Positions 14,992-21,362 of a DNA stretch of 35,708 nt are shown in pieces; within the stretch, counting starts at the first letter, position 1; each line of letters starts with the position of its first letter. This DNA comes from Nitrospinota bacterium (GTDB taxonomy: Bacteria > UBA8248). The position numbers and the translations under genes are program-made. Location: NCBI GenBank assembly GCA_028820795.1, contig JAPPHK010000246.1:1-35708 (forward strand), in the 5' to 3' direction. Under the pieces are notes generated by a model. The model saw only the letters and a program-made list of their open reading frames with translations, made no database searches and was not told the DNA's origin.

Positions 14992-16173
14992 TTGTCTGAA
15001 GAGCTGAATCCGCATCTGCGTTTGCTGCTGGGGCCCGGACCCAGCCCGGTTCACCCGAGAATCCTGAAAGCCATGAGCACCCACGTGGTGGGCCATCTGG
15101 ACCCCGATTTTCTCTCCGTCATGGACGATTGCCAGGTGATGCTGCGCGATCTGTTCAACACGGAGAACCAGGTGACCTTCCCCGTATCGGGCACGGGCAG
15201 CGCTGCGATGGAGGCTTCCGTCTGCAACATCGTCGAGCCGGGCGATAAGGCCATCATCTGCGTGAACGGCGTGTTCGGCGGAAGGATGAGCGACGTGGCG
15301 TCGCGCTACGGGGCGGATGTCGTCACGGTGGAGGCTCCCTGGGGGCAGCCCATCGACCCCGGGGACGTGAAGGCCGCGCTCGACGCGAATCCCGACGCCG
15401 TGATGGTGGGGCTCGTCCATGCGGAAACGAGCACGGGCGTGCTCCAGCCGATGGAGGAAATCGGCGCGATGTGCCGCGAACACGGCGCGCTCCTGCTGCT
15501 CGATTGCGTCACCTCCCTGGGCGGCGTGCCCGTGGAACTCGACAAATGGGGCGTGGAGGTCGCCTACAGCGGCACGCAGAAATGCCTGGCGTGCCCCCCG
15601 GGCGTCGCGCCCGTCACCTTCAGCGAACGAGCGCTCGGCAAGGTGCGCGAGCGAAAATCCAAGGTCACGAGCTGGTATTTCGACGTGAGCATGGTGGAGA
15701 AATACTGGGGCAACGAGCGCGTCTATCACCACACGGGTCCCATCTCCATGAACTACGCCATAAGAGAAGCGCTCCGGATCATCTTCGATGAAGGCCTCGA
15801 GGCGCGCTTTGCCAGGCACGCCCTGGCGAGCAAGGCCCTCCAGGCGGGCGTTGAGGCGCTCGGTCTTTCCATGTTCGCCCAGGAGGGCGCGCGCACGCCC
15901 ACGCTCAACACCGTCGCGCTCAAGGACGGTATGGACGACGGCGCCGTTCGCAAGAGTCTGCTCAACGATTTCAACATCGAGATCGGCGGCGGATTGGGTG
16001 CTGTGGCCGGCAAGATATGGCGGGTCGGGATGATGGGCCACGGGGCCACACAGGCGAACGTGGTCTACCTTCTTTCCGCGCTGGAAGTAATTTTCTCCAA
16101 ATTGGGGTATATTACACGGACTGGAGATGGTGTCGGGGCCGCGACGCAAGTTTACGCAGACGCGGCTTCCTGA
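14992..16173 (+). CDS. Class V aminotransferase (alanine/serine-glyoxylate aminotransferase type)
   Basis: This encodes a 393-residue PLP enzyme. The start is placed at TTG 14992 after GAGGGAAAA, which gives the typical N-terminus ending in LLLGPGPSPVHPRIL; a GTG at 14932 would add 20 unlike residues. Other hallmarks are FPVSGTGSAAMEA, VHAETSTGVLQP, the cofactor-contact LLLDCVTSLGGVPVELD and the PLP lysine K197 in SGTQKCLACPPG. Family members transfer amino groups between alanine or serine and glyoxylate, or handle hydrophosphonates. It may link to the dehydrogenase/CoA genes upstream only loosely. The tatA gene follows after 23 nt. Confidence 0.85.
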   Translation: MSEELNPHLRLLLGPGPSPVHPRILKAMSTHVVGHLDPDFLSVMDDCQVMLRDLFNTENQVTFPVSGTGSAAMEASVCNIVEPGDKAIICVNGVFGGRMSDVASRYGADVVTVEAPWGQPIDPGDVKAALDANPDAVMVGLVHAETSTGVLQPMEEIGAMCREHGALLLLDCVTSLGGVPVELDKWGVEVAYSGTQKCLACPPGVAPVTFSERALGKVRERKSKVTSWYFDVSMVEKYWGNERVYHHTGPISMNYAIREALRIIFDEGLEARFARHALASKALQAGVEALGLSMFAQEGARTPTLNTVALKDGMDDGAVRKSLLNDFNIEIGGGLGAVAGKIWRVGMMGHGATQANVVYLLSALEVIFSKLGYITRTGDGVGAATQVYADAAS

Positions 16174-16196
16174 GCGTTCGCCATAGGAGTTTTTCG

Positions 16197-16397
16197 ATGT
16201 TTCCGATGAATATGGGCATTCCCGAGCTTCTGGTCATCCTCGCGATATGCGTGCTGGTCTTCGGCGCGAAGCGTCTGCCCGAGATCGGCTCGGGCCTCGC
16301 TCGCGGTATCAAGAGCTTCAAGAAGGGGATGAGCGACGAGCCGGAACTGCCCGAGAAGAAAGAGGCGTCCGCCGCCGGAGAGGGCGACAAGGGCTGA
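16197..16397 (+). CDS. tatA: Sec-independent translocase subunit TatA
   Basis: This encodes a 66-residue protein with one N-terminal membrane helix (MGIPELLVILAICVLVFG), the FG-x-KRLPEIGSGLARGIKSFKKG hinge and amphipathic helix, and a charged, flexible tail. TatA forms the pore of the twin-arginine pathway, which exports folded proteins, including many molybdenum enzymes. AGGAG precedes the ATG at 16197. No tatB or tatC is in the window. Its location directly before the molybdenum-cofactor genes fits with Tat export of Mo enzymes. Confidence 0.92.
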   Translation: MFPMNMGIPELLVILAICVLVFGAKRLPEIGSGLARGIKSFKKGMSDEPELPEKKEASAAGEGDKG

Positions 16398-16456
16398 AGA
16401 GCCGGTTCGCCTTTAGGCCCGCGCGTGAATTCCGAGGCGTCGCGTTCCTCATCGGC

Positions 16457-16598
16457 GGGGCGTTTTCTCAGACAGGAGATGTCGGGTCCGCGTGCTTTGT
16501 AAACAGCAGCGGGTGATGGGTGGGTAGAGCCTCGCGGGATGCGGCGCTGTTCTCCGCCGTCAAGGGGCGCGCCGGTTGAAGCCTCCCGCGAACGCCCC
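16457..16598 (+). ncRNA. Structured leader RNA upstream of moeA, candidate cofactor riboswitch
   Basis: A 142-nt domain is closed by a perfect 8-bp stem: GGGGCGTT (16457-16464) with AACGCCCC (16591-16598). Inside it, three arms can form. The first is GACA/TGTC at 16471-16483. The second pairs CCGC-G-TGCT with AGCA-GCGG around TTGTAAAC (16488-16513). The third is a perfect 7-bp stem CGCGGGA/TCCCGCG (16533-16539 with 16584-16590), enclosing a CGGCG/CGCCG hairpin (16542-16559). It is followed by an intrinsic terminator and then moeA. This is the layout of a riboswitch. The Moco RNA motif is the obvious known candidate, but I cannot confirm identity from sequence alone. Confidence 0.5.
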
Positions 16599-16611
16599 TT
16601 ATGTTTTGCGA

Positions 16612-16646
16612 CCAGCCCTGCGCGCGCAGCGGTTGGTTTTTCTTTT
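16612..16646 (+). terminator. Intrinsic terminator between the leader RNA and moeA
   Basis: CCAGCC (16612-16617) pairs with GGTTGG (16631-16636), continued by TGC/GCA inside, and is followed immediately by TTTTTCTTTT. The arrangement is a standard Rho-independent terminator only 14 nt before the moeA start and 14 nt after the structured domain. It would switch moeA transcription off unless an alternative fold forms. Confidence 0.6.
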
Positions 16647-16659
16647 CCGGAGATGTTCG

Positions 16660-17901
16660 ATGGAATTCTTCAAGGTCGTATCGCCCGAAGAAGCAATAAG
16701 CGCACTTCAGGGCTTCCGTGCTTTGCGGATGGAGAGCGTCTCTTCTTTCGACGCCGTGGGCCGTGTCCTGGCCAGTGACGTTCACTCTCCCGTCGACCTG
16801 CCCGATTTCCCGCGCGCCACGATGGACGGCTATGCTTTGAGAGCCTCTGATTCCTTCGGCGCGGGCGATGCCATTCCCGCCTATCTCGATATCATCGGGC
16901 AGGTGCCCATGGGGGAGGCGCCCGGTTTTTCGGTAGGCCGGGGCGAGGCGGCGCGCATCCTGACGGGCGGCATGGTGCCGGAGGGCGCCGACGCCGTGGT
17001 GATGGAGGAGTTCACCTCGGCTCCCGACGCGGAGACTTTGGAGGTCCGGCGTCCCGCCGCCGTGGGCGAGAACGTACTTGGCATTGGCGATGATCTCGAA
17101 AAAGACGAGTTGATCCTGGGGGCGGGCGCGCGCTTGAGGAGCCAGGACGTGGGCGCGCTCGCGGGCGTTGGGGTCACGTCGGTGGAAGTCCACCGCCGTC
17201 CCAGGGTGGCGATACTGCCCACGGGCGATGAATTGGTCGACCCGCGCGAGGCGCCCCGCGCGGGCCAGGTGCGCGACATCAACCGCTTCTCCCTCGCGGC
17301 GGGGGTGGTCGAGGCGGGTGGCGAACCCGAGACCGAAGATATCCTCCCGGACGATCTCGAAGTCATCAAAGAGCGTCTCGACCGAGCGGTGAATCGCGCG
17401 GACGTCGTGCTCATCTCGGGCGGAAGCTCCATGGGGCTGCGCGACTACACGGTGGAGGCCATCGACTCTCTGGGCGAGCCGGGCGTTCTGGTGCACGGCA
17501 TATCTATCAAACCCGGCAAGCCGACCATCATCGGTCGCATCGTACGTGGCGGGGAGGACAAGGCCGTCATCGGCATTCCGGGGCATCCGGTTTCAGCGCT
17601 CATGATCTTTCACGCTTTCGTGCGGCCCGTCATCCGGCAGTTGAGCGGCGAAGTCGCCCGCACCGAAGCGGAAAGAGAAGGACTTGCAGCCACCCTGTCG
17701 AGGAACGTGTCCTCCGCTCCCGGTCGCGAGGATTTGGTTCGCGTCTCGCTCGAAGAGGGCGAGAACGGGCGTGTCGCCCATCCCCTGATGGGCAATTCCG
17801 CGATGATTTCGACCATGACGAAGGCGGACGGCTACATCACGATTCCCCTCGAAGCCGAGGGGCTGCGCGAGGGAGCGCAGGTGCGCGTGCATCTGTATTG
17901 A
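16660..17901 (+). CDS. moeA: Molybdopterin molybdenumtransferase MoeA
   Basis: This encodes 413 residues, the usual MoeA length. The start at 16660 has GGAG 8 nt upstream. Motifs are complete: PRATMDGYALRA near residue 51, GGMVPEGADAVVMEE, VAILPTGDELVDP, ISGGSSMGLRDYT, GISIKPGKPTI and GIPGHPVSALMIF. MoeA inserts molybdate (or tungstate) into adenylated molybdopterin to make Moco. It is the first of two MoeA paralogues here, followed after 42 nt by a MoeA-PBP fusion and then moaA. The structured leader and terminator upstream suggest control at the RNA level. Confidence 0.92.
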   Translation: MEFFKVVSPEEAISALQGFRALRMESVSSFDAVGRVLASDVHSPVDLPDFPRATMDGYALRASDSFGAGDAIPAYLDIIGQVPMGEAPGFSVGRGEAARILTGGMVPEGADAVVMEEFTSAPDAETLEVRRPAAVGENVLGIGDDLEKDELILGAGARLRSQDVGALAGVGVTSVEVHRRPRVAILPTGDELVDPREAPRAGQVRDINRFSLAAGVVEAGGEPETEDILPDDLEVIKERLDRAVNRADVVLISGGSSMGLRDYTVEAIDSLGEPGVLVHGISIKPGKPTIIGRIVRGGEDKAVIGIPGHPVSALMIFHAFVRPVIRQLSGEVARTEAEREGLAATLSRNVSSAPGREDLVRVSLEEGENGRVAHPLMGNSAMISTMTKADGYITIPLEAEGLREGAQVRVHLY

Positions 17902-19910: not shown

Positions 19911-20894
19911 ATGGCGTTATTCGATCGCTACGGGCGCGCGCACGATGACTTGAGAATCTCGGTGACGGACCGGTGCAACTTCCGGTGTTTCTACTGCATG
20001 CCCGAGGAGGGCATGACGTGGCTGCCCCACGATGAGGTTCTCAACTACGAAGAAATCACCCGTATCGTGCGCATCACCACCGAACTGGGTTTTACGAGCT
20101 ATCACCTGACCGGCGGCGAGCCGCTCCTGCGCAAGGACTTGCACCGCCTCGTCGAGCAGATGGTGGAAGTACAGCCCGAAATGGACCTGGCCCTGACGAC
20201 CAACGGCGTCTTTCTTCCGAAAATGGCGAAGGATCTCCACGCGGCGGGCCTGAGGCGCGTGAACATCAGCCTCGATTCCATGGACGCGGGCAAGTTCCTC
20301 TTCATGACGCGCCGCGACGTGTTCGGCCAGGTGATGGAGGGCATCGAGGCGGCGGCGGCGGCGGGATTCTCGCCCATCAAGATCAACGCGGTGGCGGTCA
20401 AGGGCCTGAGTGAGGAGGAGTTGCCGCGCTTCGCCAGGTGGTCGCGCGAGACGGGCCACATCGTGCGCTTCATCGAATACATGCCGCTCGATGCGGACCG
20501 CACCTGGGCGCACGAGAAGGTCTTGACTGCGGAGGAGATACTGGAAGGCCTCTCCGTCGAGGGTGAACTAGAACTCGTGAGCGGCCACCCCTCCGACCCC
20601 GCGACGCGCTACCGCTACAAGGACGGCAAGGGCGAGGTGGGCGTCATCGCCTCGGTCACGCGGCCTTTCTGCCAGGACTGCAACCGCATCCGTCTCACGG
20701 CCGACGGCATGGTGCGGACCTGCCTGTTCTCCACCACCGAGCACGACGCCAAGAAGCTGCTCAGGGGCGGCGCGACAGACGATGAGATAAAGGCCTGGCT
20801 CGCCGAGGTGGTGCTCACCAAGACGCCGGGCCACCTCATCGGCCAGAAGGAATTCGTCCAGCCCGAGCGCACCATGAGCGCCATCGGCGGCTAG
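19911..20894 (+). CDS. moaA: GTP 3',8-cyclase MoaA
   Basis: This encodes a 327-residue radical-SAM enzyme that catalyses the first step of molybdopterin synthesis, turning GTP into the 3',8-cyclo compound. The N-terminal iron-sulfur cluster site is C22-x3-C26-x2-C29 (DRCNFRCFYCMPEEG). The C-terminal cluster site is C254, C257 and C271 (FCQDCNRIRLTADGMVRTC). The required C-terminal GG tail is present (MSAIGG). It begins 17 nt after the MoeA-PBP gene and so shares its operon. MoaC, MoaD and MoaE are not in this window. Confidence 0.95.
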   Translation: MALFDRYGRAHDDLRISVTDRCNFRCFYCMPEEGMTWLPHDEVLNYEEITRIVRITTELGFTSYHLTGGEPLLRKDLHRLVEQMVEVQPEMDLALTTNGVFLPKMAKDLHAAGLRRVNISLDSMDAGKFLFMTRRDVFGQVMEGIEAAAAAGFSPIKINAVAVKGLSEEELPRFARWSRETGHIVRFIEYMPLDADRTWAHEKVLTAEEILEGLSVEGELELVSGHPSDPATRYRYKDGKGEVGVIASVTRPFCQDCNRIRLTADGMVRTCLFSTTEHDAKKLLRGGATDDEIKAWLAEVVLTKTPGHLIGQKEFVQPERTMSAIGG

Positions 20895-20939
20895 GCTTCC
20901 CGCATATCGATCTGAATTCGAATACTCAGGCGATGAAAC

Positions 20940-20965
20940 GGCGCCGGATTACGAGCGTCGGCGCC
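20940..20965 (+). terminator. Possible terminator hairpin after moaA
   Basis: GGCGCCG (20940-20946) pairs with CGGCGCC (20959-20965) around a 12-nt loop, 45 nt after the moaA stop. There is no T run next to it, so efficiency is uncertain. It lies at the edge of an AT-rich stretch. Confidence 0.4.
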
Positions 20966-20979
20966 TGTGAAGTTCATAG

Positions 20980-21362
20980 CTTATAGCGAAATTAGTTATC
21001 TTATAATTAAACTATAAATCTCCTAATTTCCTTATAATTCCTGCGCAGCATCCGCTTCAGAACTGATACTCACCTGAAATGGATCGGAACGGGAGTATTT
21101 CCCGAAAACGCGCATCCTGGTAGCAGCATTTCTCGATTATTTTGAAATTATCTATATTATATAATAATTATAACTCTTATAAGATTGTTATAAATTTCTG
21201 CGCTGAATTCAATGGGCAATTCACATGAGCGGTTGGTCGAAACAGAGCACTCGACCGAAAACAACAGACATCCCGGCGAAGAGATTTATTGAATTATTCA
21301 GAAATTAGCTATCTTATGAAGAAATTGTAAAGTATCTAATTTTAATATAAACTCATCACAAC
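20980..21362. other. AT-rich stretch with direct repeats before an orphan ATPase
   Basis: Base composition changes abruptly to AT-rich (TTATAATTAAACTATAAAT, TATATTATATAATAATTAT). A 17-bp direct repeat, GAAATTAGYTATCTTAT, occurs at 20988-21004 and 21301-21317 with one mismatch. The end contains TTGTAA and TATAAA hexamers that could be a promoter for the ATPase gene. No gene is supported. The block could be an integration junction, a promoter region of acquired DNA, or an unwinding region. Confidence 0.5.

Follow-up and report, generated by a model that had tools for sequence, protein, structure and literature searches.

The moeA leader of the window, the whole stretch of 35,708 nucleotides that was analysed, is probably a Moco/Tuco-riboswitch leader that has lost its aptamer and retained a weakened terminator as a constitutive attenuator. 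This reading corrects a likely false riboswitch call made at this leader by an initial annotation, and at the same time ten genomes of relatives labelled Nitrospinota were shown to carry RF01055, the Moco RNA motif or molybdenum-tungsten riboswitch, between tatA and moeA. The two sister lineages form a natural pair, one with aptamer and terminator and the other with the terminator alone, in which the fate of a sensor-less expression platform can be tested; its hairpin might weaken, it might attenuate constitutively, or a different signal might capture it.

The moeA locus and its terminator

The window belongs to a MAG (G000) whose named relatives carry a Nitrospinota or Nitrospinae label, and no similarity to plasmid DNA was found in it. 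The gene moeA was present in all 18 genomes of the family sample, from which 17 leaders were taken, each running from the tatA stop to the moeA start. The sample included the window's genus (7 genomes, the window's own and those of six congeners, five of the seven being 93–97% complete) and the sister genera g2, g3, g5 and g6 (ten genomes in total). Gene mapping gave the order aminotransferase class V, tatA, leader, moeA, moeA-PBP fusion and moaA, where tatA (16197–16397, plus strand, as are the leader elements and the genes behind them) encodes a 66 aa protein of the TatA/B/E family (Pfam PF02416, E 2.9e-14, on an overlapping longer frame) and moeA (16660–17901, with its ATG at 16660) carries MoeA_N, MoCF_biosynth and MoeA_C domains. 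Behind it, in the same direction, lies a second MoeA carrying a fused PBP-like substrate-binding domain (PF12727; 17944–19893), and a domain search identified a radical SAM enzyme at 19911–20894 that resembles MoaA of Moco synthesis. Genes of Moco synthesis or use (moeA, moeA-PBP and moaA) are therefore found downstream of the leader, as membership of RF01055 demands. Several promoter-like sites were observed on the minus strand of the intergenic stretch behind moaA (20895–21362), and moeA of the congener G006 (L046, G006:C210) lay in two overlapping frames, reflecting either a frameshift or an assembly error.

The intrinsic terminator upstream of moeA is real and conserved. It consists of an 11-bp hairpin with one bulged C and a GCGC loop (16611–16637) and a U tract (TTTTTCTTTT, 16637–16646), the complete element being ACCAGCCCTGCGCGCGCAGCGGTTGGT followed by TTTTCTTTT (16611–16646). 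The U tract ends 13 nt before the moeA ATG, and these 13 nt hold the probable ribosome-binding site of moeA (GGAGA, 16649–16653), which lies outside the hairpin and directly 3' of the U tract; both the tract and the binding site were read from the sequence. Hairpin stability exceeded chance for the terminator alone (z −3.2 against dinucleotide shuffles) and when aligned (z −3.6, column shuffling), and pairing was maintained in 100% of cells across the 17 alignable family leaders (14 distinct sequences), with two pairs changed on both sides and a covariation score exceeding that of every slid control. Within the genus 25 of the 27 hairpin positions were invariant, and terminator identity to the congeners G003 and G004 was 0.94–0.97.

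A stable hairpin with a U tract, beyond chance and with conserved pairing, is what characterizes an intrinsic terminator, and the initial annotation was right to place one with a T-rich run just before the moeA start; in a check set beforehand, it was present in all 17 alignable leaders. This conserved terminator also provides the window with an expression platform of the kind expected for RF01055, which is either a terminator or sequestration of the ribosome-binding site. An automated terminator scan missed the hairpin, probably owing to its bulge, and such an absence carries no evidence. A repeated genomic terminator was dropped as an explanation, as the exact hairpin core occurs only once in the genome. 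Hairpin energies ranged from −16.5 to −16.8 kcal/mol in the window's genus in comparison to −19.1 to −22.9 kcal/mol in the sister genera, making the hairpin 2 to 6 kcal/mol weaker in the former.

The leader upstream of the terminator

Between tatA and the terminator (16398–16610), where the sister genera have their RF01055 aptamer, none was detected in the window. The initial annotation had described here a 142-nt domain (16457–16598) with three arms, closed by a perfect 8-bp P1 stem. The letters confirmed this complementarity (16457–16464, GGGGCGTT, with 16591–16598, AACGCCCC), and a functional helix was not supported. A stem of this kind is expected by chance, because shuffled leaders contained on average 0.78 perfect long-range 8-bp stems, and 37% of them had one or more. 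P1 pairing probability was high when the domain was folded alone and approximately 0.0001 within the full leader, and AGGGGCG (16563–16569) is a rival local partner for the 3' arm. Covariation of P1 across related leaders, also a check set beforehand, was absent from the five alignable genomes, where 75% of cells were paired and no compensatory changes occurred; P1 was disrupted in G003, G004 and G005, which are three of the four alignable congeners. The leader region holding the 3' arm was deleted in G002, and the mid-leader sequence of G001 was unlike that of the other congeners.

The domain as a whole gave a similar picture. Against dinucleotide shuffles, folding of the domain gave z −0.49 and that of the whole leader z +0.36 (z 0.58 for 16440–16680), and consensus folding energies in the column-shuffled alignment test gave z +0.1 and +0.18 for domain and leader, respectively. 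The full domain structure had one covarying pair and a covariation score reached by 53 of 500 shuffles. An alternative alifold-derived structure had 94% of cells paired and two covarying pairs, with 4 of 500 shuffles scoring as high, and was derived from the same alignment rows. The multi-arm RNA before the terminator looks like a chance fold, and its description as a structured aptamer was not supported, for want of excess stability, constraint or convincing covariation. Nor was the suggestion of a new aptamer class, as conserved covarying secondary structure was not found in 16457–16598, among few independent lineages that give limited power. A small conserved ORF was also dropped as leader content, since the frames contained stops and had neither a common start codon nor a clear codon-position bias.

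Leader identity to G003 and G004 was 0.71–0.72 in 16481–16608, in comparison to 0.72–0.76 at moeA 4-fold sites, and the pre-terminator leader appears to diverge roughly neutrally, much as these sites do. Among G000, G005 and G006 leader identity reached 97–98%, which was rejected as a sign of selection on the leader, since it is mostly accounted for by a recent tract common to the three genomes. High leader identity alone is not evidence of selection, because 4-fold identity among these three genomes was also raised in the adjacent coding tract (0.89–0.93 in 15880–16170 and 0.71–0.76 further upstream). The three genomes were far more alike in 15880–16660 than just upstream or in moeA (0.68–0.76), with a sharp end at the moeA start, and the interval looks like a recombination tract when judged by these identities. 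In addition, tatA (16197–16397) was nearly identical across the genus even at 4-fold sites (0.91–0.97), exceeding neighbouring genes.

Searches for RF01055 in the sister genera and the window's genus

RF01055 (gathering cut-off 36 bits) was found in ten of ten genomes of g2, g3, g5 and g6 at 50–67.8 bits, with one copy per genome that sits exactly between tatA and moeA and is followed by the homologous terminator. These copies (L034–L042 and L045; for example L039:2828–2960, minus strand) lacked P3 in alignments. Moco RNAs without P3 have been proposed as sensors of the tungsten cofactor (Tuco), and some Moco RNA copies have been described with intrinsic terminators behind them (PMC2408646). 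Folding of the sister-genus leaders gave z −2.0 to −3.7, that of the leaders in the window's genus z −0.5 to +0.4, and consensus folding of the Moco alignment gave z −4.5 under column shuffling (−5.4 for five of its rows). CUCCGAGC, the AGGG...GGAAAC arm, CCUCCCG, UGGAAAGGAG and P1 were near-invariant in the ten copies. Among upstream partners for the 5' arm of the terminator, the 3' strand of the Moco P1 ranked first or second in nine of the ten sister leaders, a pairing that fits an OFF switch in which the ligand holds P1 and the terminator forms.

None of the 7 genomes in the window's genus had an RF01055 match above the cut-off, nor had the AT-rich genome G009, and the covariance-model search of the window leader that the initial annotation had asked for returned no match even at E 5. 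A family-specific covariance model, R1, was built from the ten sister copies and run unfiltered over the loci; it gave 112–114 bits for two true copies and only chance-level values in the window's genus, where the highest-scoring match in the right place and on the leader strand had 5.7 bits (E 8.8; L031). A sequence HMM built on the sister leaders scored −3.3 bits against the window, a value reached by 13 of 200 shuffles. The Moco riboswitch proposed at the moeA leader thus holds for this locus in the sister genera and fails for the window itself, with no RF01055 match. Remnant Moco homology of the pre-terminator leader was rejected, as neither HMM nor Smith-Waterman scores were significant; common descent with the Moco leaders is possible on sequence grounds. 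No Rfam match beyond chance level was obtained for the window leader, those to BjrC68 and sR34 being chance-level, far below gathering, and rejected, and the unlike leader of G001 had no Rfam match at E 5. That leader (L032) contains a possible long stem, GGAAGGCGAT/ATCGCCTTAC, in its unlike mid-leader stretch.

Retention of the terminator after a probable loss of the aptamer

Our preferred reading begins with an ancestor that would have had the standard order of tatA, RF01055 aptamer, terminator and moeA, still found in the sister genera. There, bound ligand would stabilise P1 and leave the terminator free to form, whereas without ligand termination would be blocked when the P1 3' strand (GGAGCGCUGGGC) pairs with the 5' arm of the terminator (GCCAGCCCCGC). 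With both the aptamer and this antiterminator strand presumably gone from the window's genus, the terminator should therefore form at any cofactor level. It would serve as a constitutive attenuator with some leakage, limiting upstream transcription into moeA and the genes behind it, with moeA expression probably supplied by read-through. No replacement antiterminator was found at a conserved place in the leaders of the window's genus. The keeping of a terminator just before the start codon suggests that it still does something, perhaps under another control.

One form of such control would be a different lineage-specific sensor (a new aptamer, a protein-binding leader or another antitermination device) acting on the retained terminator, and the strong conservation of a terminator that every upstream-derived moeA transcript must cross speaks for it, as does the alifold-derived structure within the limits of its same-alignment origin. 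We consider this quite unlikely, as none of the genus leaders nor their alignment showed excess folding stability, G002 has a deletion in the mid-leader and G001 an unlike sequence there, divergence resembles that of 4-fold sites, and there was neither an Rfam match beyond chance nor an antiterminator at a conserved place. We give little credence to the related view that the Moco/Tuco aptamer was swapped for another sensor or antitermination device, specific to this lineage, that drives the same terminator. Alternatively, the hairpin may merely end the tatA transcript, being a strong intrinsic terminator approximately 210 nt after tatA, with moeA served by its own promoter. This is doubtful, as the space between U tract and ATG is just 13 nt and contains the ribosome-binding site, so that any promoter upstream leaves the hairpin in the moeA mRNA, and a scan covering sigma-70-like sites alone found none in the leader.

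Less probable still is a very divergent Moco RNA that still works below covariance-model detection. It would share its place and terminator with the sister copies, short sequences resembling parts of them occur (AAGGGGCGCGCCGG...GCCTCCCG and CCGAG, for example), and alignment scores to Moco leaders slightly exceeded those of shuffles in G000, G005 and G006. However, the RF01055 and R1 searches described above both went without a match in the leader, R1 giving only chance scores, and three features that are invariant in the ten sister sequences, namely the 3' core GGAAAGGAG, the arm with the GAAA tetraloop and the strands of P1, were looked for in vain among the leaders of the window's genus. 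The sister-leader HMM also gave no match in four of the seven genus leaders, with the other three within shuffle range.

The aptamer-less leader could also be ancestral, with the sister clade having gained a Moco aptamer before a pre-existing terminator. Using G009 as an assumed outgroup, the window's genus was sister to the Moco-bearing genera (95.6/94), a topology that makes aptamer gain by the sister clade and aptamer loss by the window's genus equally parsimonious; a distant Bacillota MoeA outgroup left the backbone open. Gain is permitted by the tree and has an appreciable, though minor, chance of being correct. However, both groups have exactly CCAGCC as the 5' arm of the terminator, and the P1 5' strand of most sister copies has this very sequence, so the terminator looks as expected if it had been shaped by switching, and RF01055 is a widespread class (PMC2408646). 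Aptamer loss in the window's genus is most likely, because the terminator sequence common to both groups mimics P1, the tree itself not deciding the matter.

In comparison to known systems, the window shares with RF01055 leaders the place between tatA and moeA, the gene target and a homologous terminator, whereas its genus lacks the conserved core, tetraloop arm and P1. The likeness to P3-less Moco RNAs, the proposed Tuco sensors (PMC2408646), resides in the sister-genus copies, which combine absence of P3 with terminators; the window differs in that the aptamer is absent. What is shown in the window is a G+C-rich hairpin with a U tract, as in an ordinary Rho-independent terminator or constitutive attenuator, from which it differs by its position 13 nt ahead of an ATG and by its homology to the terminator of a riboswitch leader.
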